Source of the DNA: Pegea sp. RAD2-039
Taxonomy: Eukaryota > Chordata > Thaliacea > Salpida > Salpidae
DNA: 64,000 nt
Direction: 5' to 3'
Assembly (NCBI GenBank): GCA_034620365.1
Contig: JAQGEQ010000232.1
Location: 248,001 to 312,000 of the forward strand
Positions 1-63,645 of this stretch are shown here, piece after piece. A model generated the notes under the pieces. It was not told where the DNA came from. It was given only the letters and a program-made list of their open reading frames with translations, and did not search any database. The position numbers and the translations under genes were made by a program. Positions within the stretch are counted from its first letter, which is position 1. Each line of letters begins with the position of its first letter.

Positions 1-2771
1 TGTCTCTGGTTGGCTGTGCAACTTTAGTTTCTTGTGATCTGATTGAAGACATTCGTAAATCTGATCTTAAAACTTTTCTTGGTTAGTTTATTTTCAAGTA
101 CTCTGATCGCATCTTAATTTTATCTTTTTCTAATACTTATTGAAGTATATTCTAACTTTTACCAAACCCTATTTATTCTTCATCTGATTTTTAGTGTCTG
201 AAAGTAACCTTAAACTTACCGAACATTCAGCTAATCATCATTTAATTGTCACCTGATCTTCATCTAATCATCATTTAATTGTCACCTGATCTTCATCTAA
301 TCATCATTTAATTGTCACCTGATCTTCATCTGATATTTATCTTTTTCAGTTTCAGATTTTGTCTCTGATAGCCGGAGTAACTTGGAGTATCTGAGACTCA
401 ATGAAGATAGTTTTTCGGAAATCAAAAATAAGTTTATTGAGTTGATGAGTTCTAATAACGACAGTCCACAATTTGTCCTCGATAACCTGGTCTTGTTTCA
501 GAGGTGTGCCACAACGACAATAGTACCATATTTGACCCTTAAAAATTACACAGGGCCGGAGGAATCTTCGGTGATCCTCATTTTATAATTCCACTTTCTT
601 CTGACCAAAATATTTGTTTTAGCTGGGCAAAAAAGAGTGATGAGGTAAAAATCATGTGACTTACTGACCACGTGACCTACTGACCACGTGATCTACTGAC
701 CACGTGACCTACTGACCACGTGACCTACTGACCACGTGACTTACTGACCACGTGACTTACTGACCACGTGACTTACTAACCACGTGACTTACTGACCACG
801 TGACCTACTGACCACGTGACTTACTGACCACGTGACTTACTGACCACTTGGCTTACTGACCACGTGACCTACTGACCACGTGATCTACTGACCACGTGAC
901 TTACTAACCACGTGACCTACTGACCACGTGACTTACTGACCATGTGACTTACTGACCACGTGACTTACTGACCACGTGACTTACTGACCACGTGACCTAC
1001 TGACCACGTGGCCTACTGACCACGTGACCTACTGACCACGTGACTTACTGACCACGTGACTTACTGACCACGTGACTTACTGACCACTTGGCTTACTGAC
1101 CACGTGACCTACTGACCACGTGATCTACTGACCACGTGACTTACTAACCACGTGACCTACTGACCACGTGACTTACTGACCACGTGACTTACTGACCACG
1201 TGACTTACTGACCACGTGACCTACTGACCACGTGACTTACTGACCACGTGACTTACTGCCCACGTGACTTACTAACCACGTGACTTACTGACCACGTGAC
1301 TTACTGACCACGTGACTTACTACTGACCACGTGACTTACTGACCACGTGACTTACTGACCACGTGACCTACTGACCACGTGACTTACTAACCACGTGACT
1401 TACTGACCACGTGACTTACTGACCACGTGACTTACTGACCACGTGACCTACTGACCACGTGGCCTACTGACCACGTGACCTACTGACCACGTGACTTACT
1501 GACAATGTGACCTTTTAGTTTGACAACATCATTTCAACCTCAAATCATTTTATTAATGCTCGTATGGCGCCTCATAAAGTTATGAGGCCAACACGCGAAA
1601 AGGTCTTCATCACCGAGGTAGCCATTGTTCTTCCGCGCAATCAACTTGCGTTGATGGTAAGCTAATGCTGATGACGTCATTCAGCGATAATAGCGTCATC
1701 ATCCTGCACAGTTCTTTCCAGATCGAATCGAAATGAAAAAGTCAAACTTAAAAACAAATTTAAATATAAAAACTTTCAACAACTACACAAGTGATGACGT
1801 CACTATTCGATTCGACAAAATATCTTCTGGAAGTTCTTACGTCACTGTTGTTATATACGATTCTACTTACAAGGTTCGTTCTGCATTACTGATTTCAGAG
1901 ACTACTTGAGCTGTGATGTAGATGGTATTACGTCATGGGGCTATTGACCCGCATGTCAATCTGTACTTTACTGATTTAACTGAAACCTGTGACAAAAACG
2001 CAAAACGATACAACGGACTTGCTGGACAATTTTGTACTAAAAAGCTTAAAATACTACCCATTGACCACAAAAATGCAGTTATCCAGTTTGGGTAAGTTTG
2101 TCACGTTGTTTAAAGTGACTTTTTTGGCCTTTTTTGGGTTTGGATTTTGTTAATTAAAAATTGTCCTTAATTTAAGATTTTTTAAAAAAGCTGTTTTAAG
2201 AGAAATTTTTTTGGTTTAAAAGTTAATTGTTTCTGATAATATTCTAGAAGTGTAATAAAAATAAATTAACTCAAACCCTAAAACTAGCCTAAAAAAATGT
2301 TAGTTTGGTATAATTATTCAAGATAATTGTTTTAAATTTTTAAGTAGAATGATTAAAAAAAGGTTTTTTTATTTTAAAATCAAATTTTCTTTTAATTACT
2401 TAAAATAAATAGAAATTTTCAAATTAAAGTTTTTATATATAAACAAATAAAAAAAATAAATTTTGTAAATAAATTAAGAATTAATTAAAAATTAATTTCA
2501 AAATAACTCTTTTAAAAAAACGCCATTTTAGTCATTTTACTTATAATTGATTACTTGCATAAATGGTGGATGATGACGTAACTGATGACGTATCGTTGTT
2601 TTCAGCAACTTAAAAGCTAGTGTTCGGCGTCATGTAATGCATGGTAAAAAGTTATTCACTGGAATAAGTCGTCAATGCTGGCTGGTTACCAATGGAAGTG
2701 AACAGTTGCTAAGTTACAACAGCGATAAATTTCGCGTTCCAACTCTTCTTTCGCAACCAGCCTATTTTTGA
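1..2771 (+). CDS. 3' part of an unrecognised multi-exon gene
   Basis: Candidate coding pieces are 1-85 (third frame, reads SLVGCATLVSCDLIED...), 350 to about 566 (reads SDFVSDSRSNLEYLRLNEDS..., ends TCTTCG before a GT donor), a block from about 1899 or 1922 to 2091, and a last exon 2606-2771 ending in QPAYF and a TGA. The 2091 donor and 2606 acceptor join in phase (GG|C), so the last two exons are well supported; they include ILPIDHKNAVIQFG and KKLFTGISRQCWLVTN. How the 566 donor joins the later exons is unclear. A short exon near 623-645 is possible but does not fit in phase. I do not recognise the family. The intron at about 650-1900 holds a large minisatellite. The 5' end lies outside the window. 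Confidence 0.55.
231..331 (+). repeat. 33-bp tandem repeat, three copies
   Basis: Three near-identical units (core aattgtcacctgatcttcat) lie in the intron between the first two candidate exons of the partial gene. The array stops about 20 bases before the acceptor at 349, so it sits in the branch-point region. Confidence 0.85.
655..1510 (+). repeat. 15-bp minisatellite with a CACGTG in nearly every unit
   Basis: About 57 head-to-tail copies of a 15-base unit, core tgaccacgtgactta, with a few variants (cttg for cgtg, cctac for cttac). A higher-order pattern is visible, because blocks near 840-990 and 1080-1200 repeat the same order of variants. It lies in an intron of the partial gene. It is not a CRISPR array, since there are no unique spacers. 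Confidence 0.95.
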
Positions 2772-5009: not shown

Positions 5010-6543
5010 ATGAGCCTTCTTAATATAATGAAGATGATTTTTTTTCAGATGTGTGGAAGGAAACAGATGGTTTCTAATCGGTTATGTTTCCGGACTTTTA
5101 TGATCGCATCCAGTAGTTTACTAGTTGCTCTTGCTTTTCTCAATCTCCGAAGTTATCATAAATATGTCGTCCTCTACGCCAGACTCCCTTTCCAGGAGAG
5201 GAAGATGACGTCAAAACTTCTAGAAAATAACAGAATCAGCATCCAATCTGCTGAAGATCACAAGATGAAGATTGAGTCATCAAAGGATCAGTCCGCAAAT
5301 GATCTGATCTTCCCAGCTCTTTACAAGTAAGTATCCAACTTTTTAAAATAAAATCACTCGAGCGTGACAAACATTGAATGATGACGTCACCATCGACTAG
5401 ATTCAATTCATAGAATGGTATTCGAGTAATCACCATGACAACTATGACATCATCAGATCAGAGATTCTTATCCTCAATTGGAGACACTTGTGGGACAATC
5501 CAACTGAAGGACTTCGCGAAGGATTAGTTCGCGAAGGATGCCGCATCACTTACAACCAGAGTCTAATCTCACAAGCTTCTGCTGTTGTCTTTGAATACAC
5601 GGCTCTCGATCATGAGACGTTGCCATGGAAATACTATAGGTAGCAACAACTGAATGAGATGAGAGAGTTGAATTGGTTGTTGCTAGGCAACAAGATCAGG
5701 TGTTCGTGTTTCGCGTCGCGGAGAGCACGGCTTCGATGAAAAACTGGTTTCATTTCGACTTCACCAAATTCGACCAACTCGTTGTTAATTGGACGATGAC
5801 GTATCGACGCGACGCCGATGTCTTCGCGCCCTACATCAAACCCTGGCAGCTTCATCACCACGTCAAGGATGGACAGGAAGCAGTGGACCGAATTCTGGCG
5901 AAAAAAAGTAGAAAAGCGGTAAGTTAATGACGTCATCGACGTAATATCTTAATGACGTCATCAATAGCTGTGGGTGGTTAGCAACTGTAAGGGGTCCAAG
6001 GGGGCGCGGAGGAGAATGGAGTTGGTTAAGCAGCTGATCGCGGAGGGACTCGAGATTGATTGTTTTGGAGGTTGCTTTGGTAACAGTGATGAATACAATT
6101 CGATGTCCCAAGATAGGATCGATTCTTACAAGTTCTATATCGCGTTTGAAAACTCATTTCGTTGCCGTGACTACATCACCGAGAAGTTCTGGCAAAAGTC
6201 CCTTATCAGGGGACGTGTCCCTGTTGTGTGGGGTCCTTCTAAAAGTGACGTCACAGAAATAGCACCGCGTGGATCCTTTATTCATGTCGATGACTTCAAA
6301 ACACCACGTGATCTTGCTCAGTTTCTCATTCATCTCGATGCTGATGACGTCGCTTATCGCTCTTATTTTAATTGGATGATAGATTATGACGTCACCAAGC
6401 CGAAAAGCTACATCCAGAAGTTTGAAGATGTTGAAGAACATTTGTTGTGTGAGAAGTTAAAACATGGCTTCGCGCGTAAATCGATTACGTCATTAGATCG
6501 ATTTTGGTACGGATCTGACAATGCTGAGTGTTTTGAAGAGTAA
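5010..6543 (+). CDS. Alpha-1,3-fucosyltransferase (GT10 family)
   Basis: Exons 5010-5326, 5457-5639, 5687-5918 and 5968-6543 join in frame to 435 residues. The enzyme would transfer fucose from GDP-fucose to N-acetylglucosamine-containing glycans in the Golgi lumen. The N-terminus has a type II membrane anchor (about residues 25-45, FMIASSSLLVALAFLN), then a stem. The catalytic domain follows, with ILILNW, the family signature NWTMTYRRDADVFAPY in exon 3, and FYIAFENS, CRDYITEKFW and VPVVWG in exon 4. These are the donor-binding motifs of GT10. The start could instead be a later ATG (5028 or 5049), because a polypyrimidine-AG lies just before 5049. I cannot assign a vertebrate paralogue. Confidence 0.93.
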
Positions 6544-8716: not shown

Positions 8717-11700
8717 ATGAAGTTTCTGATTTTTTTGATATTAATTCACTTTGTTGTTGGAGCTCCAAAACCAACAGCAAAAGTAAAAGAAGAAGAAAAA
8801 ATAAAATTTGAACCTGAGAAGACTCCTTTAAGTGAAGAAGAGGTTGAAGATGTGGTAAGTGATCTTCTTAATGATCAAGATCAACTTCTAGATAATCTTC
8901 TTGTTGCTAGGATACAGGACTTCTGTATGATCAATATCTGAAGAAAGTCTTGAAGATCTTAGAGAGCAATGATCAACTCAGAGTTAAGATGGAGCAAGCG
9001 AGTGTTGATGATATCAAGGTGATGACGTCATCAATCTGTTCTTGACGTCATCACTGATTGTTTGCAGAATGGGAAGATCAGTAAAGAAATCAACTTTCTT
9101 CCTTCTGAACTTCGCGATAAACTGGATGAAATCAAGCGTGACGAAATCAATCGTCTTCGGCGAATGATTCAAGCGAAAAACGTCGTCGATAAAGGTGATG
9201 ACGTCACACCTGATGACGTCATTGTGATTTCAATTGTTTTTCAGGTGGAAAAATCAAGAAAAGCTCTCATCTTCGACAGATCGCGAGTCATCTAGATCAT
9301 GAAAATCCTCATTCCTTCGAAGCAGCTGATCTGACCAACCTCATCAAAGCGGTTGGTTGCCTAGCAACGCGCTTCTATGAAAATATGCAAATGAGTTGAT
9401 TATAGGCGACTGCTGATTTAGAGAAGTATGATACAGATCGTGAAGATGAATTCAAACAAATGGAAATGGAAAAAGAGGTCCGACGTCAGGAAAAGATGAG
9501 GAAACTAGATCAACAAGATCGAGAAAAAGCTGAAGCAGAATTCAAGAAGCAATTAGAAGAAGAAGCAGCAAAACATAAAACTAACCATCCAGTGAGTTAC
9601 TAGTTTAAATGGTTCGTCAATAAGATGGTTCATTTACGTCATCACTTCGAGACATTTTTTTGTTTCCAACCAACTTTAATACTCCTCATGAGATATCATG
9701 AAAAAATTAATAAATAAAAATTATAAATATCTAGTCTTAAGATGTCTCGCGGCCTTATCGTTTGAAATCACTGGTTTGTCATTTAGATGGTTTATTTGTC
9801 ATTTAGATGGTTTATTTGTCATTTAGATGGTTTATTTGTCATTTAGATGGTTTATTTGTCATTTAGATGGTTTATTTGTCATTTAGATGGTTTATTTGTC
9901 ATTTAGATGGTTTATTTGTCATTTAGATGGTTTATTTGTCATTTAGATGGTTTATTTGTCATTTAAATGGTTTATTTGTCATTTAGATGGTTTATTTGTC
10001 ATTTAGATGGTTTATTTGTCATTTAGATGGTTTATTTGTCATTTAAATGGTTTATTTGTCATTTAGATGGTTTATTTGTCATTTAGATGGTTTATTTGTC
10101 ATTTAGATGGTTTATTTGTCATTTAGATGGTTTATTTGTCATTTAAATGGTTTATTTGTCATTTAGATGGTTTATTTGTCATTTAGATGGTTTATTTGTC
10201 ATTTAGATGGTTTATTTGTCATTTAGATGGTTTATTTGTCATTTAGATGGTTTATTTGTCATTTAGATGGTTTATTTGTCATTTAGATGGTTTATTTGTC
10301 ATTTAAATGGTTTATTTGTCATTTAGATGGTTTATTTGTCATTTAGATGGTTTATTTGTCATTTAGATGGTTTATTTGTCATTTAGATGGTTTATTTGTC
10401 ATTTAGATGGTTTATTTGTCATTTAGATGGTTTATTTGTCATTTAGATGGTTTATTTGTCATTTAGATGGTTTATTTGTCATTTAGATGGTTTATTTGTC
10501 ATTTAGATGGTTTATTTGTCATTTAGATGGTTTATTTGTCATTTAAATGGTTTATTTTTTCCTACCAAATGGACTATGGATTGTATTTTAAGTAAATATT
10601 TTTCCAAATGCAACAGGGAAGTAAAAACCAATTGGAAGATGTTTGGGAAAATCAAGATGGGTTAATTGATGAAGATTTCGATCCCAGAACATTCTTTATG
10701 CTTCACGGTCAGTTGCACATCACGTGACCACGTGACTAGCTTGTGATTGGTTGATTAGCAATCAGCTTGTGTTTGCTGTAATTGAAATCGGGGAGTCCCC
10801 TCCACCTCCCCCACACCCCCCCCCCCTCTCACGTCATCGCTCGCGTGTCACTCATTTGTGACGTCATCGTGTTGATTTGTGAACAGGGCAGTCGTGCACA
10901 GCTGGAAGAAGTCTGGAATGATGAAGATGGATTAGAAGATCAGCAATTTGATCCCAAAACCTTCTTTCGACTTCACGGTAAGGGGAAATCCCGGGTTTAA
11001 AACTCCACTTGTTAATTGACTTCTGTCATTCGATGACGTCACTGACCTGATGACGTAATCACTGCTCATTCCCCATTTCAATTGCATGAAATCGCCTTGC
11101 ATTACTTCTCGTGTGTATGACGTCACTTCACTACAGATCTCAACGGTGATGGATACATGGATGACTCCGAACTCGAGACTCTTTTCTCGAAAGACGTGAG
11201 TGTGTGACGTCATCAGCGGTCGGTGGGTGAATATTTGTGATGACGTGTTTGTGACGTAGTTGGCGCGCGCGTATGAAGGAATGAAAGATGAAACGGAGAA
11301 GAAGATGAGATTAGATGAAGAGAAGAGAAGGATGAGAAAACACGTGATGAAAGAAGTCGACAAAAGTGGCGATCGGCTCATTTCACTCGAGGAATTTGTG
11401 AACTATTCGCGGACTCCAGAGTTCGAATCTCCCGATAAAAACTCGTATCAGGTCCGATGTGAATTGATCGATCGATCAGGGTTGTGATCGTAGATTTTTG
11501 TAGTCTTTAGATGATCTTCTTCTTAATCACGCCTTGTACACGTCACAAGAGCTCGATAAATATCGCGATGGAATCCAGAAACAGGAAGATGAAATTCGTG
11601 TAAAGTTAGAAGCATTAAAGAAAGAAGCGAAAAATCTAGGAGGACTTCGTCGTGATCTAAGTGAAGAGAAGCGTGTTGCTCTTCAAGATGGGAAGACAGA

Positions 11701-12139
11701 AGATCACGAGAAGGAGAAGATCGAATCTCAAGAAGAGCAATTGAAGATCCAAGAGCAAAAAGTCCAACAACTTCATCAACAACTTCAGAATCAAAGCAAA
11801 GAAGTTGTTGATATGAGACGAAAATTGAAAACAGTAAATGTTTTGTTGCGGGGAATTCCCTGATTTAATTTGAATATTTTGTAGCATGAAGCATCCGAAA
11901 AAGTCCTCGAGGACATCATGACGCGATTAGAGAAGATGCCGAACGGAAAAGAGAAAGATGAGGAGATCGCGAAGGCTCACAAGGAGTTGGAACACGTGAA
12001 GAAAGCTCAAGCTGCAGTAGAAGATATCCCAGTAGATAATCTTCACGATAATCTGATCAAAGATGAAGTCGCACCTCCTCCTCCTCCTAAGATCACAGCT
12101 GATCCAGTTGAACATCCAACTGATCTTCCAACTTTGTGA
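8717..12139 (+). CDS. Nucleobindin (NUCB1/NUCB2 family), EF-hand calcium-binding protein
   Basis: Exons are 8717-8854, 8911-9018, 9068-9194, 9245-9351, 9406-9591, then 10617-10707 or 10887-10977, then 11137-11195, 11260-11451, 11504-11833 and 11885-12139. With either alternative exon they total 530 residues. A signal peptide (MKFLIFLILIHFVVGA) is followed by the family block DTGLLYDQYLKKVLKILES, a basic helical region, EF-hand 1 (DLNGDGYMDDSELE), EF-hand 2 (DKSGDRLISLEEF), a long glutamine-rich coiled coil, and a proline-rich end (APPPPPK). Nucleobindins bind calcium in the Golgi and secretory pathway and can interact with G-protein alpha subunits. The order matches the vertebrate proteins closely. 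AATAAA signals lie at 12318 and 12328. Confidence 0.95.
9772..10556 (+). repeat. 20-bp minisatellite in a nucleobindin intron
   Basis: About 39 almost perfect copies of atttagatggtttatttgtc. The only common variant is atttaa for atttag, recurring at intervals that suggest block duplication. It fills most of the intron upstream of the first alternative exon and ends 61 bases before it. Such high identity implies recent expansion or homogenisation. Confidence 0.97.
10617..10707 (+). other. Nucleobindin alternative exon 6a
   Basis: 91-nt exon encoding GSKNQLEDVWENQDG... to FFMLH. It is flanked by acceptor caacag and donor cacg|gtcagt. It is homologous to exon 6b at 10887-10977: same length, same phases, 19 of 30 residues identical. 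Confidence 0.9.
10887..10977 (+). other. Nucleobindin alternative exon 6b
   Basis: 91-nt exon encoding GSRAQLEEVWNDEDG... to FFRLH, flanked by acceptor gaacag and donor cacg|gtaagg. Because 91 is not a multiple of three, using both 6a and 6b would shift the frame of everything downstream, so only one can be used in a productive mRNA. Confidence 0.9.
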
Positions 12140-49720: not shown

Positions 49721-51572
49721 CTATTTTTACGAAATTGCTCAATCCAAGGGACAAGAGTAGGAATGATATAAAGTCAGGACCACAACTGATCACTGAAAGG
49801 TCTTCGTGGAAGTAACTTAAATCCAGAAAGTAGTTTTTGTGGAAAAGAAGAATTTGTTGTAAATCAACCTGAAAATTTAAAGTTACGAGGGTTGCAAAAT
49901 TAAACTATAAAAGAAATAACAAAATGGTTGGAAAACAAGGAATCATCAGATTAGATTAGCAGCTTGACAAATTCTGGGGTGTTATAGATTAAAAGATAAA
50001 AAATATGACTTTTGAAATGAGTTCATTTATAATTGTAGAAGAGAATTTATAATTATAAGATTGAGAAAATTATCATTATGAGAATCATCTGAATAAAGAG
50101 CATTAGTCCAATCCGTGTTAGAAAGATTAAAATCTTCAAAAAATTAGAAAATTAGTATTTCAAGTAACATTATAGGTACCAGGAAAGGATAGATCTATTA
50201 AAAGAGGGATATAGATAGATCAAAATCTGACTAAAGTAGCTTTTATTGAATAATTAAACGCTAGTGTCAATGTAGTCATATTTAGTGATATTTTAGCCGA
50301 GGAGGCTAACTATCAGGTTTAAATGTTATCAGATAGACTGATAGACAGGAAGAATAAGTCGGTTTAGTTAGAGTCGTAATAATTGGACACAATGTTTATC
50401 TAATTTACCATAGATCTGATATTACAATAATCACTTAACAGACTCTTCAAAGCTGGGCTGATAATGGCTTATGAGAGGAATAATCATAAAATTATATTTG
50501 AAAGGAGTAAACTAATTCAATAGATTTCCTTATGGTTTTGTTTAAAAATAATCTATAAGTTTAGCTTTTTTAGTTATTTTATAATAAGCAAAAAAAAAAC
50601 TTTTGAGCAATGAATTTGAGTAATTGTAAAAACCTATTTTTTATTATTTCTACTATTCGACCATTTTTGCTACATATTGGTTTACGAGCTATTATCTGGT
50701 TTACTATATTAAAACTAGCCACGCCGATTTTAAAATTCAGTCATTTTCTATCTTTGTAGTTCCTACCTTCATTAAGTTTTTTTATATTTTAATGCTAAGT
50801 TTACTTTACCTTTTAGGTAATAATCAAAAATGGTATTTACTGTAGATTTTTATTTTATATATATGTATGATATATAATTGTGTGTTATTTTATTCGATGA
50901 CATAAGTTTGACTTTATAAGACGTTTTTACTCAATTTATTTTATAAACTTATTAGGAAACTTTTGAGACACATTTGTATCAGATGGTAAACTATTTATAT
51001 AATTATTTTTACACAACAAATACTCTACTAGTTATTTTTGAATTTTTTATATTATCAAACCATATTACAAGTAATATATAGTTTTTCTTATTATAAATAC
51101 ATTATTAATATGTGACATAGATATTTTAGTAATAAGTTCTTATAAGAATTCAAATCTTGAAGATATAGTTTTGATATGTAATAAAGAAAGTTATATCTTT
51201 AGCTTTTTACATGTTTTTAAACTCTTAATATTAAAATTGTTTATATTGAATTTTTGACTAGCTAAAATTATTAATTAGTTATTTATTTGTTTATGATAAT
51301 AATTAATATAATAGTTGATAATTTTTAATTAATTAAAACTATTAGTTAGTCATTTTTATTAGTAAATAAATACTTACTCAAAATGTTAATTGAGTTATAA
51401 ATTTTTAGTGCTTTTTGAAATGGTAAATTCATTTTATTAGTTTTAACTTAATTTTCATTTATATAATGTTTTATTATAAATTTATCAAAACAAAAATTGA
51501 TAAAATATTCAAATATATTTTTGTTGTTTTAGAATTTATAAATTTTGCATTAAATCTAACTTATATTTGATA
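49721..51572. other. AT-rich intergenic sequence
   Basis: May include more of the LINE remnant up to about 50300. Beyond that only A/T-rich DNA is seen, with the NXF promoter expected just before 51573. Confidence 0.45.
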
Positions 51573-54500
51573 ATGTCTCAAGACCAAAGATTTTATCAAA
51601 AGCTAGGTGAGATTAAAGCTAATATTTATATTTTGATAAATTGTAAAGTGTTGTAAATGTATAAATATTTCTTTAGGAAATTTATTTCTGTTAAAATTGT
51701 AACATAATGTTGGTCTTGATTTTTAATTATTTGATAATCTAATTTTAATTATAACCCAATAATAGAATAAAAATATTTATTAAATTAATATTTTAACATT
51801 TAGAATCTGACTTCTATATTTATATATAATAAATATATTATTAATCAAACAAAAAAGTAAAAATAATTATTGTTAAATAAAGTATTCATTTTTTAAAATT
51901 TATTTTAGTTTTCTGTTAACTTGGAATCAATTATTTTTCTTTTAGATCATAAAACTTCACATTATGGTCATGATGATAGAACTTATAGCGCTCCAAACGG
52001 TCGCTCAACTTACAGAGGAAGACGAGGACGGGGCAACAAGTCTTATAGGTAAACAAATCTTCACCATTTGTCAGTAGTTAGTCGGAAAGGTTTCTGAGCT
52101 TTGATTGGTGATGGTTTGATACAGGTTACTTATCACAACTATCATTAAAATTTATATAATTTAAATTAATTTTGAATCTCTTGAACAATTTTTTCTCATA
52201 TTTTAACACCAAATCAAGACCTCACAGAGATATGATGAGCAATCCTAAGATTAGTGATGATGTTGACATGGAAGGTTTTGGTGATTATAAACAACGACCG
52301 TGAGTTTACTCAGCAGTTTAAGATGATTGCTCATCACTAAACATCTTTATAGTGCTCCTTATGCAAGACCTTCGAGAAGAGGAATTAGTAAAAGAGGTGC
52401 TAACCGATCTGCAAATATTAGAAATCGTCTTGGCAATCATCAAACGTGGTACATGATTACTGTAAGTTGCATCTTTTGATGATATCTTGCTCATTTCACG
52501 TTGAGATCATCCGCAGGTGTATGAAGCGGCAGTTGAAGATGAAGATTCACTTATGAGCAAATTTGAAAAGCAAGCAGGAAGAAAGATCGATTATCTTCAG
52601 GTGATGATGTCTTGAGTGTTCTTCCTTCATGTCTGACAATTTATTTACAGTATTTTGAAGATGGTGAAAATGTAAACTTCTTTATTCTTGGAATGACTGA
52701 ATCACAGTTAATTTTGAACTTTGATAAGAAGATCAGATCTTCAGATGGCAAATTGGTGAGTTAAAGACATTTTTCATCAAACATCTTGATGATGAAGATC
52801 AAATTTTGTTAATAGTTGACTATTCGACGAAGAGTTTCAAAAGATGAACCATTAAGTAATCCACAAGTTGAGAAGTTAAAGGTTTGTCGAATATCTCTTT
52901 GATCTTCATCTGATCAATTTGAATGATGTAGGAAGTGTTGAAGAATCGATTAAACAAAGAAAGTCGTCATCTTGATTTGAATTGTCTTTTTCACGAGCAA
53001 CAACTACGTTCAATGAATATTATCCTCAAAGTGAAGTTTGCTACTCATATGGCTTTACTTCTAAACACTTTAAAGAAGATTTGTTCTGAAGATGAAGCTT
53101 ATCTGGTGAAGATCATCTAAAAAACAATCAATCTTCTCATTTGTGTCTTTTCCACAGATCGTTTCTATTGATTTGAGTAAGAATCAACTTTACAATTTAG
53201 AAGGAATCAAACATTTGGTTTCATATTTTCCAAACATCAAGAAAGTTCTTCTTTCCAACAATCAAGTTTGTCTTCTTCCTCTCTTGATCATTTATCAGCA
53301 GTCTTATTTGATGCAGATTTCATATTTGAAAGAACTGAAGAAGCTAGAAGATTGGAACATCACTAACCTGTATCTAGATGAAAATCCTTTCTGCTCCAAG
53401 TTTGATTCACAAGTGACCTACATCAGGTGATGACTAATTGATGATTTTTTGGACCAAATAGCAAAAAAACCAACTTCTTATTTAATTGAAATTCTTTTTC
53501 AGTGAAATTCGAGATATCTTTCCTGACTTGGACACTTTGGTAAGCATCTTTTCACCACTAAGACCTGATTTGAAATTCAAAATTTGTAGGATTCTAAACC
53601 TTTAACTCCACCTGTCAAGTTTGATTTAGCAAAACAAGAGTTACCAGAAGACCAAGGACACAATTTGTCGTTACTGCCCAACGACCAAGCAAAAGATTTT
53701 GTTGGGCAATTTATCTTTCAGTAAATAATTTGAAACAATTGAAATATTTCTCGAAATGTTCACTAAATTTCAGATTTTTCAAATCTTTTGATGAAGATAA
53801 GACACAGTTGAAGACCTTGTACAATTCCAACTCCATCTTCACATTATCTATTCCATCGAGTCCAAGAGGTCCTTCATTAAATCCTTACTTCAATCTATCT
53901 AGAAACTTGAACACAAAAAAAAGAGGTGAACACGTGACCATTTGATCACAAGATCTTCAATCATTTAATTACAGTGGAGAAGATATCGCGGACTATTTGT
54001 GGAATGGAACGCATCGTCAACGAGTTGTCGACCTTACCACCTACTAAACACAATACTGATAGTTTTGTTGTCGATGTCACGATGTGCATGCCTAAAATGA
54101 TTACATTTGTAGTAGAAGGATTATTTCAAGAAGGTTTACTACTTGTTGATTTAACTTTTTGTTTATTTCATTTGTTTGTAGAAAAAATTTCACAAGAAGC
54201 AGTGACGCGCGCTTTTTCGCGCAATTTTGTTTGTGTTCTTCATCAACAACCTCAACTGTAAGCTTCTATTTTCTTTCTTCAACAATTTTACAAGTAAATT
54301 TTTGAAACTGACAGAAAATTAGAAGTTATTAACGACCAACTACACATTCGTAACTCAACTGTTGTTGAACGAAAAAACAAACTAATTTCGATAAAAACCA
54401 AGGTTTGTTCATCTCATCTACCTCCTTTTCAAGTGATTAAAATCCTTTTTTTTGCTTCTTAGAAAGCACCAAGTAACCCATCTGTTCCACAATCACTTAC

Positions 54501-54717
54501 AACCAATGAAAAAGGAGAATTAGTTGCCAAGTTTTCTATTGAATCAAAAATGAATATTTCATTTTCATTTGAATGCTTAGAAGCAAATGATTGGGATTAC
54601 AATAAAGCAGCACAAGACTTTCTCACCAAAAAAGTTTGATTTTCACCTCTTCCTGTCATCATCTAATATCTTTATCTTTTTTAGGACTCCATTCCTCCCG
54701 AAGCTTTCCAAAAGTGA
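51573..54717 (+). CDS. NXF1: Nuclear RNA export factor, NXF1/TAP type
   Basis: Starts MSQDQRFYQKL at 51573. It is followed by an RG-rich basic region (YRGRRGRGNKSYR), an RRM-like domain (TWYMITVYEAAVEDEDS...), leucine-rich repeats (IVSIDLSKNQLYNLEGIKHL, ITNLYLDENPFC), and an NTF2-like domain (FVGQFIFQ... TKHNTDSFVVDVTMCMP, FSRNFVCVLHQQPQL). It ends with a UBA-like TAP-C domain (NISFSFECLEANDWDYNKAAQDFL) and DSIPPEAFQK at 54717. This is the full domain set of the mRNA exporter that carries mRNPs through nuclear pores with its NXT1 partner. About eighteen short exons have canonical GT-AG sites. The C-terminal NWDY-type nucleoporin-binding helices are intact. Confidence 0.95.
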
Positions 54718-55848
54718 CGCGACAATTTCATCTTTTTCTTTCTTCCAAATCCCAATCTTACCACCGACCCTAATCCTTCTACTTCACTTTATGACGTCAT
54801 CACTTATAGAGATGATGACGTCATCAATTTCTAATCCTTTTACATCCCTTTTCTTTCAAACGATCTCTTGTAGCAGTCTCATTCTTTCTTCTAATTTATT
54901 TGTTTTTTTGTTTTTCTACTTTTTTCAAAAATGACAAACGGACAGATGAGGGTTTAGTGAGAGGGAGGGAGGGAACTGGTTGTGATTGGTTTGTTGAAAC
55001 TGGCTCAATTGGTTTATGAAAACTGAATAATGAAAAAGCAAAAGTGCTTACAGGTTGCTGTGAGTCTGCTTAATTTACAAATCTCAGAGTTTACATCAAC
55101 TTTGAGTTTCAGTTTTGAAATTGACATCAATTTAGTTGAATTTGAAAGTTTAGAAACCAAACAGTTTGTCATTCTTGAAAATTGACCGTTTTTATTTCAG
55201 TCACGTGATCGCATTTGTAGAAATTTGAAATCAGTGAAATCTGATGATAAAGGAAAATTTGAAGTCTTCTTCCACGATTTCTCTGATTAAAATGAAGATG
55301 TTCTTTTTCTTTCTTTTGAAAAATCTTCAAAGACCTTTTTTTGATGTCAAACCCCTGGAAATAGTCGAAATTTCCGAAGCAGATATTTGGTTTATCTGCA
55401 AATATTCCTAATATAAAAAATTTGGAATTTTACCAACGATTTTAAGAATGAGTAAAAAAGTTGATTTACTTTTTATAAAGTTTTTATCCAATTTTTATTT
55501 GCCAATAAAATGATTTCGTTTTTAATGTAAATTGTGTTTTATGTTTTATTTACAAATTAAAGTCTAAAAAATTATTAAAAAGTTTTTTCCATTTTCTTGT
55601 ACTTCTGTCACTCTAAAGTGAATAGAGAAGTTGTTTCAACTGCTACTACACTCATGAGTTTACATTTGATGATTGAAAATAGAACAGCAATTGAAAGGTT
55701 TTTGTTGTTACCTCTGAAACTATCTTCTGTCAGAGAAAAGTTCTAACTAGAAGTCATTTGACACCAAACTACTTTCAATTTAAAAATAAAACATTTGACA
55801 GAAAGTTTTCTTAAGTAGAAGTAATCATCGGAACATTTGATTGGTTTT
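54718..55848. other. 3' flank of NXF gene and intergenic DNA
   Basis: Two GACGTCATC sites lie at about 54791 and 54816 in the probable 3' UTR. The rest is AT-rich with no supported exon. Confidence 0.5.
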
Positions 55849-56091
55849 TTATTTCATAAATTTAACTGTCTTAATAAAACTTGTTCCTACTTCTTCAATT
55901 CTTCGGATATAATCTTTGATATCTTGAGAAGTTTCTAAACCCTTACTACTTACAACATTTGCAATTGTTGCTATCAAGTCATACAAAATCGATCTATTTT
56001 ATATTAGTAAACCTGCACGCGATGATTTAGGAGTAGGATCTTCTAAATATGACCCAGTGGACTTGGTAGTTGGTGTAGCGGTTCTGGACAT
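55849..56091 (-). CDS. Small two-exon gene, unknown function
   Basis: Minus-strand exons 56091-56013 and 55970-55849 join in phase (G|CA) to a 66-residue protein. It starts MSRTATPTTKSTGSYLEDP and ends IRRIEEVGTSFIKTVKFMK. The 42-nt intron begins gtttactaat and ends gatag. The N-terminal half is Ser/Thr/Pro-rich and probably unstructured; the C-terminal half is a likely amphipathic helix. No family recognised. Support is the clean splice structure and non-AT-driven composition compared with the surroundings. Confidence 0.5.
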
Positions 56092-57506
56092 TTCAAAAAG
56101 TAGTGACTTATAACGAAAAAACTCCAAATAGCTTTATACTATAGTCATTTTCTAAATTATAGTTTCAAAAGATCTAGTTTCCAACTAAAAATAATTTTTT
56201 TATGTTGAACACTGACGACACTTAGCGTTTAAAAACTTTGACTTTTTACCACAGATTTTGAGCAATAAATTCGTTTTTAATCAAAGTTGCTCCATCGGTT
56301 GTGGTCTTCTATTTTGTTTTAACATTTAAGAACTTTGTTGTAACATTTATAGATTTACAATTCTTACTAACAGATTTTCAAATTACTTTTTCTTTAATAT
56401 TCAATGAGAGTTTGAATAACAACTTAAATTGTCAAAAAATATCTTCAATCAATTTAATAATTTAAAATAATTTTAGTTTTAATTTATATTAGTTTTTGAA
56501 ACCTTTAAAATAATAAATAAAAAATTGCTTGATTTTTACTGTTACTGACAAACTTTGAGGTAATCACAAAGTAATTAAGAAATAAAAATAGAAAAAAAAA
56601 CCTTGTCATATAACCCATAAAATTCGTTAACAACAACTAGAAGTTGATTTTAGTTAAATTAAATAGTTTTTAAAAACTTGTATGTTATAGCAGCTTGACA
56701 CAAAACAATAAATAAATAAAACAGATGCTTTGGAAACTTTGTTTACGTTTCTAATACCTGCTCTGACTACAAGTTGATAACCTAGTTTTTAAATTAACCT
56801 ATATATGTGAGACTGATTTTGTTTGATTCTCTTAAAAGGTGTTAAATTGTTTTCTTCAATTAGTTCTAGTTTGTTTGGTTTGATTTCTAAGTTCACAATT
56901 TTAACAAAGTTTTAGAAATTATTTTAATGTTAAGAATTTTGTAAAAATTTGTAAAATAAAACTTTTTTTTGATTATTAGTTTGAAGTTAATCTGAATATT
57001 TGATTAATTTATCAATTTTCAAGTCGCATAATTGAGAGTAATAAATTTCTTCCAGAAAATTCTTTTAAAATAAAACTTAAATAAAAGCTAAAAAACTTTT
57101 TATATTATTAAATATTTATTTGGAAAATTGATTTTTTAAATCAGTTTATCTGTTCATTTGAAATATCAGGAAAACCCTTAAGGACTAATCTAAACAATCA
57201 AAGCTGAATCAACCAATCAGAAGCAAGATGATCATTTTGATTCTAAGCTTCAGTCATATTTGAAAATATTTCACTTGAAAGGGATTCGAAACAATCCAGG
57301 AACCGTTAGTTGCTTATTTTCCAAAGATTAATGTTTTGTTTGTTTTTCATCGTCTTCACATTTTTCGGTCTTTTGTTTGGCGACTGCACATCACTTGGCA
57401 ACAGCCCCCTCCAGTGGATACGTCATCACCAAAAAGCAAACAGAAATAACGAGGAAAAAAGCAGATAGCGAAGCATAAGAGTCAAGATAAGTGAATCAGA
57501 CCCAAC
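56092..57506. other. AT-rich sequence between the small gene and Hedgehog
   Basis: Less AT-rich from about 57300, where the promoter and 5' UTR of Hedgehog should lie. No defined regulatory motif can be supported. Confidence 0.5.
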
Positions 57507-58990
57507 ATGTTGCCCCACAAGTTACTCGTCATCCTCACCTCTATAATCCTGGTCAGTAGTTGTGGACCTGGGACAGGTATGAATAGAAGTATAGCTCGAC
57601 CCAAACGTCTTAGACCACTGAAAGTTTATGAGATCGTACCTGAAGTGTCCGAATGTAGTTTAGCAGCAAGTGGTCCTTGTCCTGGTCCAGTTGTCAATGG
57701 AAGTGACCGATTTGACCAACTCGTATCTTTATACGATCCTCGGATCAAATTCGGAGCCAGCGGTTTCCATGACAACCGCGTGAGGTTGATGAGCAAGGTA
57801 AGAGTTTCCAAAGTGAAATTTGGTGAAAGTTGATGGTTTGGTACTCATCGAAATTTCGTTGCTTTTGTCAATTGTTTTTTGAAGGACTTTTAACTCTTTT
57901 GTTGCTGATTTTCAAGAGACGTTTGTGATGAGAAAATTTGAGAAGATTTGTTTAAAAAGAATCCTAAATGAATCATTTAAAATTTCTTTTTTTTTTTGTT
58001 GGAAACACTTTTTAGCGATGTGCTCGGTTGCTACGGATACTTGCAAATCGTGTGTGGATTAATTGGAAACAGAGGATCTTTGTGATGAAGTCTTGGACAG
58101 AGTCTGATGACATCACTACGCCTTACGGATTACATCTGGAAGGTAACTCTTCTAGAAGATGATTTATCGATCTTTGATTCATCTTTTCAATCTCAGGAAG
58201 AGCTGTGATTATCCGGAAGTTTTCACAAAGTCCTTATCCAACACTAGGTGTCATCGCGGCGATAGCGGTTCGCGTCGGCTTCGATTACGTCAGCTACGTC
58301 AGCAGATCATATGTGTATTTGAGCGTGAAGCCAGGCAAGTGACACGTGACTTCGGCCGAATCTCATTTGCATCTTTCATTAGATGGATCAGCAGGAGCAA
58401 TCTACGGTGGTTGCTTCGCAGCTAACAACTTGGTAACGTTGCCTAGCAACGCAACCGTCGAGATTTCACGTCTCCAAGTAGGCGACAAAATACGAGCGTT
58501 TGACCGCTCGAGTGGAAATGTAATAAATAGTCGATTTGTTGGATTTCTCGATTCCACTTTTGCACCTCTTATCACTGTTACCACGGCAACTGGTGACGTC
58601 ATTCAGCTGACGTCATCACATCTCATCCATGTAGTCAAAGGCGATAGTTGGAATGACGTCATGATCGTACACGCGCGTAATTTGCGTGTTGGTGATTACA
58701 TTTTGATGGACAGCGATCAGAAGCTGAAAAGAACGCGTGTTGATGACGTCACATACGATGTTGGTCATGTGATGGCTCCGCTGACGGAAGACGGGACGAT
58801 CATCGTGAACAAAATCGCTGCTTCGTGTTACGCTTTCATTACCAATGAGGTTGTTGCTCACTATTCTATGTTTCCTGTGAGATGGTTCGACTGTTGTCAT
58901 GGTAACCATGCCAACGTCACTGGTGTGCATTGGTACGCGCGTTTATTGTGCAAGTTTAAAAATCTATTTTTTCCTTTTCTTCTTGAGTGA
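57507..58990 (+). CDS. HH: Hedgehog morphogen precursor
   Basis: Exons 57507-57797, 58016-58142, 58197-58334 and 58383-58990 give 387 residues. The signal peptide (LLVILTSIILVSS) ends directly before CGPGTG, the palmitoylated N-terminus of the mature ligand. The signalling domain is recognisable but divergent (RPLKVYEIVPEVSECSLAASG, FDYVSYVSRSYVYLSVK). The autoprocessing module starts at GGCF, the cholesterol-coupled cleavage site. It keeps the Hint residues, with TSSH corresponding to the conserved T..H and a conserved ASCYA. The third intron uses a GC donor. Gene order in exon 1 to 4 follows the conserved Hedgehog structure. The catalytic zinc-binding residues of the ligand domain are hard to align by eye. 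Confidence 0.95.
58335..58382 (+). other. GC-AG intron in Hedgehog
   Basis: Donor cag|gcaagt is the standard consensus for GC-type introns; the acceptor is ttcattag. Splicing joins SVKP to DGSAGAIYGGCF, matching the position before the cleavage site in other Hedgehogs. The GT donor four bases further leads to a stop. The intron is 48 nt; retention gives an early stop (GCAAGTGA). Confidence 0.88.
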
Positions 58991-61900
58991 CTCGATGTTT
59001 GTGTCTTTGTTGCCGTTGTCAATAAATAGAATTTTAGTCCGTCTTGGATTTTAAATCTAGCTGTTAAATGGAGCAAAAATAATTTTGGAAAAAATAAAAA
59101 AGTTTTTGCAATTAGAAAATTGTGTTTTAAAGAAATAAATAATTATTAATAACTACGTTTATACTTTTTATGTTAAATATTGTTTTTTAATGAAATTGAT
59201 TTCTAAAGATTAAACGGTTTTGAGTTTTATTCAGGAGAAAAGTTGAAACTACTAATGTTAAATCTGATTTAACTTTTTTTTAAACAAATAACAAAATTTT
59301 AAATACCCAAAAAAGATTTTCAATAAAAAAGCTTTTAGCAGGGGTCGGTTAATGAATAACTTTTAAAACAAACATACCAGAATAAAACAATTTAAAAAAA
59401 TTACAATCCACATAAAACAATTACAAAATATTTCACTTTCTTCTTTCATATATTTTCTCATGTCAAATCTATTTATATTTACAAAACAGTAATTAATTTA
59501 GTATTTTCATAAGATTAAAGAAACTATCTTTTTTTAAACGTTAGTTTCATTTTTTTTAATTTTAAAAATATTGAGAAAAATCAAGTTATATAAAATAACT
59601 TTAGTTGGTTGAAACTATTTCTTCAACATTTTTCATATGAAGTACAGAGCGATATTAAAAAGATGTCTTATATCTAACCTAGATTTTAATAAAGTTTTAT
59701 TGACTTAAGAGAGTATATATCGTCTTTGAGGTTTATTGAGTTAAGTAAACAATGACTCAAAAATTTATGGTTAAAAATAAATCAACCTATAAAATTATCA
59801 TGAAAAAAATGTGGAATCATAATTTAATAAAATAGTTTTAAAAGTTTTATCTAAAACAAAATCATTATTTATTTATTTGAAAATTATTATTTAATTGATT
59901 TTAATTTAACAAAAATAAATTTAGGTTTGTTTACTAAACAAAAAAAATGTCCATAAAATTATATTAATTTTTGAAAATAAATGTTTTTGTTTTTATTTGT
60001 ATTAATGAGCAAACACTAATTTACCAAAAAAATTCTAGAAGTTTCTTTTTGGAAATAAACAAAACTTTTTTTAAAAGATTTTAACAATTTTGATTTAGGT
60101 TTAACTTCCTTGTTTAAAACACCTAAAAGTAGTTTAAATAATTTACAAAAAAATCAATATTTTAGTTTAATAAATTTAGCAAAACTTTAGTTTACTGGCT
60201 TCTGACATAAAAGCTAAAAATAAGTATGTGTCTTCTGCTTGATTAAAGCTTTCCTATTATTTGTCGACAGAACTGATTTTACATAAAAGGTTAAATACAC
60301 TTTTTGCACTTTGTCCAAAAGTATGAAGATTGTGAAATTAGTTTTTACTAATTAGAAAACTAGTAAAGATTATTTCCATTTATACAACAAATTTGATAGT
60401 CTTAAAAATAAACTTACAGTTTCTATCACTGCTTAATCATAAGCTATCTTTAAGGTAACCTTTTAAAACTTCTTTAAGACTACGTTAAAGTATTTTTCCT
60501 TTTAGATATGACGTTGTTCAACTATGGCTAAGTTAATTATCATTAAATTTTAACAAAATAAGAAATAACTTGACCATTTAATTTATGAAAATTAAATAAA
60601 CAGATTTAAAATTTCAAAGAATTTTAGAAAACAATGGATTTATCGATAAAACAAAAGTTTGCTTTTAAAGTTATAACATAAACAGAACAAATCAATAAAA
60701 TAAAATAAAGAAGTTATCAGTTTCTTTTTTATAATTCCTGTTTTAATAGAACTTATTTTTGGTAAAATTTAAATGAGATTTTTGACAAACAAAGCAGTAG
60801 TTTTTTGCTGAAAATATTGATTAACTGCCCCTAATAGTCAGACAATATCTAGTTTACACTTTATTGACTATTTCCTTATCAGGAATAAACTTTTTTTAAA
60901 TTTTGGAGTTTAATCGAAGATATCCTTTTATATAGAAGTGTGTTTTTACTTGTTTGGTTATCTGTTATAGGATTAAAACAAAAAAATTTACGTAAGTTAA
61001 TATAATTATTACAAATTTGTTATTCAAAAGTAGTTTTTTGTGATGTTATGTAATTTTGCTTTTAAGTATGTTGTTTATAATGTAACAAAATGTACAAAAC
61101 AGCTTCTAGTTAATTCTACTTTTATTTTAAATTCATTTCATGAAAATTTACTTTGAAAATAATCTGTGTTTTTAACATTAAGCTAACAACAATTATGTTT
61201 TAGTCCTTCAATGATGTACACAACCTTAAAAAAATATTATTATAAAACTGCTTGCTAACAATTTCAAAACTAATTATTAAGATAACTAATAGATTAGTGA
61301 AAATGACATTTACTATTTTATATATTTTGCTGATAAGTCAACACCTTATTAACAAAGCAAACTGTTTAATTACAACTCAACTAAGTAAAAAATATGTTTG
61401 TTACCAGAAGATATTTCAAATTTACAGTCTTAAACACATCTGATATAAAATAATTAGCCAGAAGTAGAATAGAATTAGTAAAGGTTTGTTACTTTCAACT
61501 AAAAATTTAAGGATTTAACTGAAAAATGTGAGTTTTATTGATGACATCTTTAATGTATTCACAAATATCGAATCTATTATTTAAAATGCATTTAAAACTT
61601 TCTTTTATGAGCTATGATTATAAACAAACAATTTCTAAATGAAAATAATTCATAAAATAAAAACAACAAAAAGCCATTTTAGTTCTATTTATTTAAAGAA
61701 ACGTTAAAACAAACCCAACAAAAATGATAACAACTAATAATTATATCTTTATATATAAAAAGCTATTTTTGTTCAAGTGGATTTTAGATGATTAGTTTTT
61801 ACTTGTCAGAAAATACTTTGATTAGATTTGCATATTAAATAGATGATAAATCCAAAGAATATGAAAATTAATGAGGATTCATCTCAAATAGAAATAATAA

Positions 61901-62325
61901 AATAAATTGAAACCGAACAGTATTTACGAGCTGATGAAATGAATGATTAGATGTTAAATCACACAAATTAATTTCTTATGACATTTTAATAGGCTGTAAA
62001 ACTTGGTGCAGTTTACATTAGAAACGAGTTGGTTGAAAACCTTTAAAACAATTAGATAAGTCCACAACAGGCGCGATGAAGAACAAAGTTTTGTGGAATC
62101 TAAGCTAATTACATTATTTTTGTATAAAGGCACGATCTTAATTCACACCAATCAAATTCATCCACAATTAAATCAACTAACAGTAAACTACAGAGATAAA
62201 AATATCGATTGTTACTTTAAAGTTTTGTTAAAATTCAACGAAAAAGTTTTTAAAATTATTCTCCACCTTATACGCTCAAAGAGCAAGATTAAATAACTGA
62301 AGAAGATATCGGATGAGGAAATAAT
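58991..62325. other. Long AT-rich gene desert
   Basis: AATAAA at 59021 probably ends the Hedgehog transcript. The remaining 3.3 kb is one of the most AT-rich parts of the window and lacks GACGTC. Open frames such as 61252-61443 and 62093-62296 show no domain and no splice context. Confidence 0.6.
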
Positions 62326-63645
62326 TTACAAATTAAACTCAGCTAGAGGCCTGGATCCTTGTCTCCACTGAGATGTCAGACTCGAATATGTTTCCTTGAG
62401 ACGATCATCCTGAAACCACTGATGTTGGAGTGCTTCTTCTGCTGTTTTTCGGTTCTTTGCATCAGAAACTAACAACGAGTTGATAAGATCTTTTGGCGTT
62501 TCTGAGATGTTTTTCCAATCTGAGTGAGGATATTGGAATTCAGCACGAAATATTTTGTTTTGAATGGGTTCTTCTTCATCTGAATCATCATAGAAAGGTT
62601 GTCTTGCTGACAGACTCTCATATATGACAACTCCTAGACTCCAGCAGTCGACCAAGCTCGTGTAGGGTTCCTCACTACCTTCAAACTTCCTCTTTAGAAT
62701 CTCAGGAGCTGCGTGCTCATTGGTGCAAGCCTTTGACGTCATCAACGAACCTTTCGAACCAATATGTGAAGTGCCAAAGTCGGCCAACTTTGTCAAACTG
62801 ATTTCATCTCGTGTCATTAGTAACATGTTTTCAGGTTTGATGTCACGATGAGTAACTCCTAACTTATGCATGTAAGCCACTGCTGATAACATCTGATACA
62901 TAGTTACCTTTGATTGAAATTCACCCATCGCACGGCCATAATCTTCATCATAAAGACGATCAAACAAGTTACCTCCTGCTGCATACTCCAGCTCCAAATA
63001 AAGGTAGTTGTCAGTGTCATGGTAACCGTACAACTCGATTATGTTTGGATGATTCAATTCTTTCAACATTTGTAATTCGTCCAAACAATCTAAACCTTCA
63101 TATTGAGAGAACTTTTCCTTGTTGACACGCTTCAGTGCACATGGCTTCATCCGGTTCATAGAAAATGAGTAGAAGACGTTTCCAGTGTATCCATATCCGA
63201 TACATTCCTTTAAACGATAACTCTCATTGATGAAAGTTGGATTTTCGGAGCCAGTACAAGGTCTTGAATCAACAAATAATCCAAGTAAGTTGTCTTCATT
63301 TCTAACAGAGATTCTTTGAAAAGTTACCAATTCAACTTGAGCTTTTGCACCAATACTTTCGCGATCGACCATGATACTGGTTTCTGAATGGTTAGTTAAC
63401 ATCACATTCCAACTATTATCTTCATTCATTTTTTTTTCGATTGTAATATGGTTCTTTTTATCCATTTCATTGTAATTCTTTAGTTCTCTTTTGGTTCTAT
63501 TAAATGACATTACCTCATAATTTTCAAAATTGATAAGATAAATTGCATTTCTGAGTGTCAAGTCATTTAAACCATTTTTATTCCCAACTATATAACCGAA
63601 GTAACGCGGACCATTACGTCGGTTTTTATATTCCTTTTTATACAT
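62326..63645 (-). CDS. Intronless CHK2-like checkpoint kinase (FHA-like plus kinase domain)
   Basis: One uninterrupted frame of 439 residues from ATG at 63645. The N-terminal 130 residues look like a degenerate FHA domain (LTNHSETSIMVDRESIG, FQRISV). The Ser/Thr kinase domain is complete: glycine loop GYGYTGNV, VAIK-type lysine in CALKRV, HRDIKPENML, DFGTSHIG, APE in EHAAPEIL, and DCWSLGVVIYESLSARQPF. The region after the kinase core (LLVSDAKNRKTAEEALQHQWFQDDRLK) is closest to CHK2. CHK2 acts in the DNA-damage checkpoint. Lack of introns in a region where every other large gene is split suggests a retroposed copy; no target-site duplication or poly(A) remnant could be confirmed. Confidence 0.88.
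   Translation of the reverse strand: MYKKEYKNRRNGPRYFGYIVGNKNGLNDLTLRNAIYLINFENYEVMSFNRTKRELKNYNEMDKKNHITIEKKMNEDNSWNVMLTNHSETSIMVDRESIGAKAQVELVTFQRISVRNEDNLLGLFVDSRPCTGSENPTFINESYRLKECIGYGYTGNVFYSFSMNRMKPCALKRVNKEKFSQYEGLDCLDELQMLKELNHPNIIELYGYHDTDNYLYLELEYAAGGNLFDRLYDEDYGRAMGEFQSKVTMYQMLSAVAYMHKLGVTHRDIKPENMLLMTRDEISLTKLADFGTSHIGSKGSLMTSKACTNEHAAPEILKRKFEGSEEPYTSLVDCWSLGVVIYESLSARQPFYDDSDEEEPIQNKIFRAEFQYPHSDWKNISETPKDLINSLLVSDAKNRKTAEEALQHQWFQDDRLKETYSSLTSQWRQGSRPLAEFNL

Follow-up and report, generated by a model that had tools for sequence, protein, structure and literature searches.

The 64-kb stretch of DNA analysed here (the window; 32.3% GC) is filled, for the most part inside its genes, with the octamer TGACGTCA, a palindrome around the core GACGTC. 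On balance we incline to the view that a pervasive sequence-specific force has raised about 28,000 such sites in this genome by point mutation and has incidentally reshaped the proteome (dipeptides Asp-Val, DV, and Thr-Ser, TS). This force would be either weak selection for occupancy of gene bodies by a basic leucine zipper (bZIP) protein, by which the unmethylated class of genes is set or guarded, or a meiotic conversion drive guided by such a protein. The genome is presumably that of an animal, as it contains a Hedgehog-like gene with a Hint domain together with ordinary animal genes. A search for COX1 gave no hit, and Xenoturbella bocki does not fit as the source, since its genome has 43% GC and a median intron length of 131 bp (PMC11521371).

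Abundance of the motif

GACGTC occurs 85 times in the window against a mean of 5.15 in dinucleotide shuffles (n = 100, standard deviation 2.14, maximum 9), and TGACGTCA occurs 82 times in total against a shuffle mean of 0.70. A 36-bp minisatellite at 15731-16439 contains 16 of the 85 GACGTC. After masking of six tandem arrays 69 remain, 66 of them TGACGTCA, which is close to the about 65 sites outside the minisatellite given in an initial annotation of this DNA. The about five sites that it expected by chance agree with the shuffles and with Markov models of orders 0 and 1 (5.0 and 5.1 in the unmasked window). The second-order model, which the same annotation had named as the background for judging the excess, expects 8.2. 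At orders 3 and 4 the expectation rises to 30 and 46, since such models already take in the motif itself.

The enrichment is a property of the whole genome and not of the window alone. In the assembly (105.7 Mb, 387 contigs), for which a genome-wide count had been proposed in the initial annotation, we found 27,792 TGACGTCA against 969 for the reversed word, and 3,824 GATGACGTCATC against 4 for its control. With 1.03 TGACGTCA per kb the window exceeds the mean of the genome (0.26) about fourfold. Beyond it, 21 loci were sampled (L001-L021, about 181 kb), eight of them selected for the motif (pattern hits L001-L004, dense stretches L007-L010) and 13 chosen irrespective of it (L005, L006, L011-L021). 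The 105 unmasked sites in the 123 kb of the latter give a density of 0.85 per kb, about three times the genome mean, mostly because of the dense loci L015 and L016. Window and loci together amount to 245 kb (about 0.23% of the genome) with 253 unmasked sites, and the densities given below describe this sample, not the genome.

Specificity of the word

The preference extends beyond the octamer on both arms, with a purine (R) at position -1 (462 of 504 arm ends are A or G), G at -2 and T at -3, the full dyad being TGATGACGTCATCA, i.e. (T)(G)RTGACGTCAY(C)(A). Each arm varies without regard to the other: left GA and right TC were found together in 45 of 252 cases against 47.4 expected (p = 0.61), and TGA stands on both arms 26 times against 25.9 expected. 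A copied 12- or 14-mer would link the arms whereas a dimeric protein that judges each half-site would not, so this independence speaks against copying.

In the dense loci TGACGTCA is present 245 times against 1.65 expected (148-fold). Only three of its 12 one-mismatch classes exceed 2.3-fold there, namely TTACGTCA/TGACGTAA (7.3-fold), CGACGTCA (7.1-fold, 10 sites) and TGATGTCA (3.7-fold); the remaining classes lie at 0.7- to 2.2-fold, including TAACGTCA at 1.0-fold. Genome-wide, TTACGTCA was counted 5,160 times against a control of 2,795 and TAACGTCA 2,370 times against 3,061, these controls being the words read backwards and hence without CpG. The change from G to A is a transition, usually the commoner mutation, and a decaying neutral repeat would leave many of its products. 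No halo of G-to-A products was found around TGACGTCA, either in the dense loci or in the genome-wide counts of TAACGTCA, which is the pattern of a binding site. The word tolerates G-to-T and not G-to-A, a spectrum that resembles binding and not mutation.

Flanks of the form RTGACGTCAY and these tolerated variants are the preference of bZIP proteins of the ATF/CREB family. Judged by that preference and not by a matrix score, TGACGTCA with its R/Y flanks fits an ATF/CREB-type site; the initial annotation had already read the core in this way, and the dyad flanks and variants agree. At least 12 matches to PF00170 are present in the genome, a small set that is not expanded. Ten of the 12 were read as sequence, and to judge from their basic regions CREB-, JUN-, FOS/ATF3-, XBP1-, C/EBP-, PAR-, CREB3- and NRF/BACH-like proteins are among them.

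The E-box (R)TCACGTGA(Y) is another enriched dyad, about 10-fold in the motif-dense loci (24 sites) and 17-fold in the motif-poor ones (6 sites). In the window and the 21 loci it is, per base, commoner in CpG-rich genes.

Origin of the sites

The sites were made in place by base substitution and not copied, because the arms are independent, intron lengths are constant, exonic sites stand in homologous protein columns and the G-to-A halo is missing. The median intron length is 54 bp with no copy (n = 264), 51.5 bp with one (n = 52) and 52 bp with two or more (n = 24), and introns of 49 bp carrying two copies occur. Insertion followed by a compensating deletion could, formally, also give this constancy.

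No motif insertion was seen at the 14 exonic sites that could be aligned, by eye, to the best solved homologue. Nine of them are ungapped at the site, such as the two sites each of myosin VII, of the fucosyltransferase and of the Hint domain's TGDVIQLTSSHL stretch. At the other five a gap of 1-2 residues falls on the site or beside it; in two of these the query is the longer sequence, in three the shorter. One fucosyltransferase site is followed by an extra stretch of five residues, which starts four residues downstream and does not contain the word. Two further carboxypeptidase sites fall outside the aligned parts.

Among 156 short introns, a 14-mer lacking the motif core is common to four pairs, one of which is an identical pair produced by local duplication. 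An introner origin was rejected on this comparison. In the window and L001-L021, a block ATATGCAAATGAG is common to two otherwise unrelated short introns.

Effect on protein sequence

In 23,368 predicted codons DV was found 145 times against 93 expected and TS 179 times against 120, about 1.5-fold in both cases. The reversed dipeptides are not in excess (VD 88 versus 93, ST 106 versus 120). GACGTC encodes 71 of the 145 DV, against 8.8% expected. The peptides VTSSDGR, DDVINY and DDVTYDV, singled out in the initial annotation, are indeed present. The override of protein sequence is carried by codon choice and by the homologue alignments, not by the dipeptide ratios alone. The force acts on DNA, the proteins being bent to fit the word.

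Retention in a tandem gene array

The fate of the word could be followed in the diverged copies of a gene that is repeated in tandem on contig C50, at about 75-330 kb: one query of 1.4 kb gave 81 matches, 80 on C50 and one on C51. Part of the array sequence (L017, L023-L032) is kinase-like by eye. The comparison used L017 and L024-L032, L023 being left out because it overlaps L017. Between copies at 65-85% identity the octamer was kept in 774 of 1,188 comparisons (0.65); for 8-mers lying no more than about 40 bp away the figure is 0.15. Of the 71 site positions with at least three comparisons each, 64 exceed their own control. These comparisons are not independent, as they come from overlapping pairs of one gene family with 38 distinct site contexts. 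Control 8-mers matched for CpG and GC behave like the other controls. At 90-95% identity the contrast is smaller, 0.72 against 0.57. In this one gene family the word is retained above its neighbouring sequence.

Enrichment and retention can both be expressed as a strength of the force. For enrichment, the natural logarithm of the fold in CpG-rich genes is 4.4-6.0; for retention, a rate ratio of about 0.2 translates into about 2.5. If equilibrium and independence are assumed, the scaled strength would be roughly 2.5-6, nearly neutral to weak, for selection and drive alike.

Placement in genes

Gene models were made with our own exon-intron hidden Markov gene finder, in which emissions are neutral at the motif and stop codons are taken from the true letters. 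It yields recognisable genes, several of them confirmed by Pfam or structure matches, and its predicted introns have a sharp length mode at about 45-55 bp. An early model, which left some false exons, placed the 66 window sites 27 in exons, 34 in introns and five outside, as expected from the clustering in genes, introns and coding exons described in the initial annotation. With the improved model, the 253 sites of the sample fall 110 in exons (1.58 per kb), 111 in introns (2.13 per kb) and 32 elsewhere (0.29 per kb). The sites of the window are distributed as follows, no strand being assigned to the motif.

1672-1802: two TGACGTCA, intron of the plus-strand gene model 1-2771
5206-6394: six TGACGTCA, predicted exons and introns of an alpha-1,3-fucosyltransferase-like gene (Glyco_transf_10)
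9023-9221: four TGACGTCA, two in each of two 49-50-bp introns of gene model 8717-9603
10859-12452: five TGACGTCA, gene model 10669-12428 and just beyond its stop codon
15167-19270: 21 TGACGTCA outside the minisatellite, exons and introns of a carboxypeptidase D-like gene, eight exonic in the improved model, the last at the end of the gene or just past it
15731-16439: the 36-bp minisatellite, 19.7 copies, its unit containing TGACGTCA, CAGCTG and TCACGTGA; 16 further TGACGTCA
23063-23473: four TGACGTCA, within and directly after gene model 21952-23411
25808-27182: five TGACGTCA, gene model 24278-27328
29599-29606: one TGACGTCA, outside gene models
33529-35276: four TGACGTCA, myosin VII-like gene, two exonic in ungapped columns against a solved myosin-VIIa
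37494-38487: five TGACGTCA, within or 10 bp before gene model 37504-41152, which has a FERM_C1_MyoVII domain
45000-45020: two TGACGTCA, 13 bp apart, intron of the minus-strand gene 43976-46074
54792-54823: two TGACGTCA, 24 bp apart, gene model 52232-56113
58594-58751: four TGACGTCA, Hint-domain exon of the Hedgehog-like gene
62734-62741: one TGACGTCA, single-exon minus-strand kinase-like gene model 62326-64000, cut by the window end

The minisatellite at 15731-16439 lies in a frame that is open for 285 residues. Further minisatellites stand in or adjoin gene models at 656-1511 (16-bp unit), 9775-10557 (20 bp), 26013-26263 (8 bp) and 39366-39820 (22 bp).

The deserts reported in the initial annotation are borne out by stretches without any TGACGTCA at 12452-15167, 19270-23063, 27182-29599, 38487-45000, 45020-54792 and 58751-62734; the second of these has a single GACGTC, at 22058. 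Part of the desert at 12.5-15.1 kb is explained by a dispersed repeat at 13544-14376, with relatives at about 69-89% identity in L008, L011, L012 and L017-L020, which, to judge from its C-terminal peptide, resembles a long interspersed nuclear element (LINE). Among the alignments listed (60 of 78) the motif is absent from this repeat and its relatives.

The initial annotation had further remarked that the two minus-strand genes have few sites. The counts (two and one) are as it said, and strand is a doubtful cause: exon CpG observed/expected (o/e) is 0.69 and 0.76 in these genes, so that membership of a CpG-poorer class is the likelier reason. A strand effect was accordingly dropped, since the CpG class explains density better and minus-strand genes at other sampled loci are rich, L008 having 24 sites in 4.6 unmasked kb.

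Upstream of genes the density is at its lowest (0.1 per kb). From 1000 to 200 bp before predicted start codons we found one site in 19.2 kb, and within the last 200 bp six sites in 5.7 kb, some of them perhaps at mispredicted starts. With predicted start codons as proxy for transcription starts, no vertebrate-like crowding near the start was seen. A rise from 5' to 3' along genes, suggested by deciles and quintiles, was not seen by absolute distance and is not claimed.

After correction for composition the enrichment is found everywhere and is strongest in introns of CpG-rich genes (394-fold, exons 84-fold), with 121-fold in introns and 14-fold in exons of CpG-poor genes and 36-fold upstream of genes (4 sites). 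Site density is 7.45 per kb in introns of 40-60 bp and 0.93 in those of at least 100 bp, or 317- against 164-fold by composition. The motif has no fixed position within short introns, and 116 of the 156 short introns are without it. The highest density reached is 6.6 sites per kb.

CpG content and methylation

Motif density follows the exon CpG o/e calculated with the motif masked, with a Spearman coefficient of 0.63 over 42 genes and of 0.80 over the 16 genes of the unchosen loci. The correlation with exon GC is lower (0.30 and 0.52, respectively). CpG-rich genes (22) have 2.90 sites per kb and CpG-poor genes (18) have 0.48.

CpG depletion is the usual trace of methylation, and the CpG-poor class would then represent gene bodies methylated in the germline. 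Bodies of constitutively expressed genes are commonly methylated in invertebrates (PMC11292947, PMC13345969). Moreover, methylation of the cAMP response element (CRE) inhibits CREB binding and yields TGATGTCA (PMC1796609).

The cytosine methylase family has 11 matches in the genome, seven of them full-length. The two read on C57 are DNMT1-like, with BAH domains and the PCQ catalytic loop kept, and the one read on C32 has lost the catalytic loop. The contigs C57, C249, C32 and C52 (L033, L034, L045) hold seven long single-frame cytosine-methylase genes of 832-873 residues, possibly retro-duplicated active and pseudo-DNMT1s.

Explanations of the enrichment

The explanation that we tentatively prefer, giving it close to an even chance, is that weak selection favours bZIP occupancy within genes whose CpGs escape methylation in the germline. 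A dyad-symmetric protein with ATF/CREB-type specificity, putatively a bZIP of the CREB, JUN or FOS-ATF3 class, relatives of which the genome encodes, would bind the intragenic sites, probably in germline cells or early embryos. Occupancy at any point of the gene body might help to keep the gene open, unmethylated and inducible. Each site would contribute little, and weak selection would then favour any chance near-match, even at an amino acid cost. Methylated genes, presumably the CpG-poor ones, could not use the site, as methylation of its central CpG would block CREB and the CpG would decay to TG. The account starts from what is seen directly, namely the dyad specificity, the substitution origin, the retention in one array, the protein override and the link to CpG class; the protein, the tissue and the benefit are steps that we infer. 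The chromatin signal offered as one option in the initial annotation comes close to it.

Several points weigh against this explanation. DV and TS are not unique in their ratios, since PP (2.6), CG (1.55) and GG (1.52) reach as high from causes of their own, and the predicted exons that contain the motif may include misread introns. TpG and CpA differ only slightly between CpG-poor and CpG-rich genes (1.26 versus 1.21 and 1.19 versus 1.13), which lends weak support to methylation as the cause. TGATGTCA is enriched 2.35-fold in motif-poor loci against 3.66-fold in dense ones, so that the motif-poor genes lack the look of motif-rich genes that have decayed. Outside gene models the enrichment is still 37-fold, or 76-fold when L020 is included, a locus with 16 sites, most of them outside its gene models; together with the 121-fold in CpG-poor introns this means that the gene-body contrast is partly one of base composition. 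Such density and the presence in coding exons are unlike known CRE function; the initial annotation had likewise found the density unlike ordinary promoter regulation, and gene bodies are indeed filled, coding exons included. Finally, what looks like a binding preference could just as well be the way in which a conversion drive recognises its sites.

Such a drive is the main rival to weak selection, and we give the drive perhaps one chance in four. In meiosis a bound bZIP-like protein would bias the repair of heteroduplexes or breaks so that the allele with the motif overwrites the one without, and sites would spread by substitution in open germline chromatin regardless of use, purging their own mutants. 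This explains the same facts as weak selection does: the substitution origin, the binding-like spectrum and missing G-to-A halo, the presence in exons and introns, the protein override, the array retention and the nearly neutral strength fit equally well. Sites of the M26 type raise breaks on their own chromosome and should erode the motif (the hotspot paradox), and the drive needs the opposite direction. For the densest stretch of the window, the one stretch tested, the assembly contains no second allele. In fission yeast, ATF/CREB sites (M26) promote meiotic recombination (PMC2677671, PMC9775316).

It is rather improbable that another dyad-recognising system, such as a sequence-specific DNA methyltransferase or a chromatin protein, owns the word and resembles a bZIP by convergence. 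Palindromes of the highly iterated palindrome 1 (HIP1) type go with orphan methyltransferases that recognise internal sequences (PMC4390886), and the genome has the 11 methylase matches (seven full-length). However, the two that were domain-scanned are DNMT1-like with BAH domains and not of the sequence-specific bacterial types, and in the one of the four weaker full-length methylases that was read the catalytic loop is lost. The flank and one-mismatch preferences match those of bZIP sites, and 5-methylcytosine at the site would speed its decay.

An RNA-level signal in the pre-mRNA, for splicing or export, is unlikely. The richness of the 40-60 bp introns (7.45 versus 0.93 sites per kb) favours it, but the word is found in exons and just past predicted stop codons too, takes no fixed intron position, is a perfect dyad with independent arms and is missing from 116 of the 156 short introns. 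The splicing-related option of the initial annotation is disfavoured on the same grounds, the word being exonic too and a symmetric DNA dyad.

Very little can be said for the copying of a short selfish element, be it by insertion or templated transfer of a 12-14-mer, by seeding from minisatellites or by introner-like introns. The very high copy number, the word inside the 36-bp minisatellite and the five extra residues after one fucosyltransferase site (though without the word) could be cited for it. It is contradicted by the independent arms, the constant intron lengths, the few common 14-mers, the exonic alignments and the motif-free repeat alignments listed. A self-spreading short motif, as the initial annotation had it, must be given up in this copying sense, with arms that are independent, introns not lengthened and sites in homologous protein columns. 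Neutral mutation bias or composition is the least probable of all: CpG-rich genes do have more sites, but the excess over composition is 14- to 394-fold in every compartment, most one-step neighbours are at background, and the array retention contradicts it.

Comparison with known systems

The closest known element is the CRE of the ATF/CREB factors, whose RTGACGTCAY flanks are those found here. Its octamer TGACGTCA is likewise the same, and so is the central CpG, which is sensitive to methylation (PMC1796609). Mammalian CREs crowd within 150 bp upstream of the transcription start, a bias of vertebrates only; the human genome is reported to have about 25% of the expected CREs, and fly, worm and Ciona are without positional bias (PMC1796609). 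In contrast to mammalian CREs, the sites described here are densest in gene bodies, coding exons included, reach 148-fold in dense loci and are nearly absent 200-1000 bp upstream.

HIP1 and other cyanobacterial iterated palindromes offer a second likeness, an 8-bp palindrome at very high genome-wide frequency (PMC4390886). Here too a short palindrome is present at many times expectation, genome-wide and in coding sequence. HIP1 is bacterial and tied to orphan methyltransferases, whereas the present case is the nuclear genome of an animal, in which the word shows bZIP-like degeneracy, stands in introns and depends on the CpG class of the gene. CREs and iterated palindromes are known; no report of an animal genome filled intragenically with the CRE word was found in the open-licence literature. 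If the interpretation is true, the highly iterated palindromes of bacteria have their equivalent in an animal, and the class of protein that reads it is known. Two questions would then become testable: what divides those gene bodies of invertebrates that are methylated from those that are not, and whether a drive-like force can spread the words of transcription factors and override protein sequence in doing so. For such tests the genome provides natural replicates by the thousand, in exons, in introns and in the array with its about 80 matches.

The ade6-M26 site of fission yeast is reportedly an ATF/CREB-type word within coding sequence. The M26/CRE hotspots, which involve Atf1, resemble the present sites in being an ATF/CREB-type word that acts in chromatin (PMC9775316 and PMC2677671). 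Their activity would tend to erode the motif, not to multiply it.

Periodic A/T clusters (PATC) occupy introns of germline genes in C. elegans and have no defined reader. They are, like the present sites, a distributed gene-body feature tied to a germline chromatin class. What differs here is that the feature is a discrete dyad with binding-site degeneracy, and that exons are occupied too.

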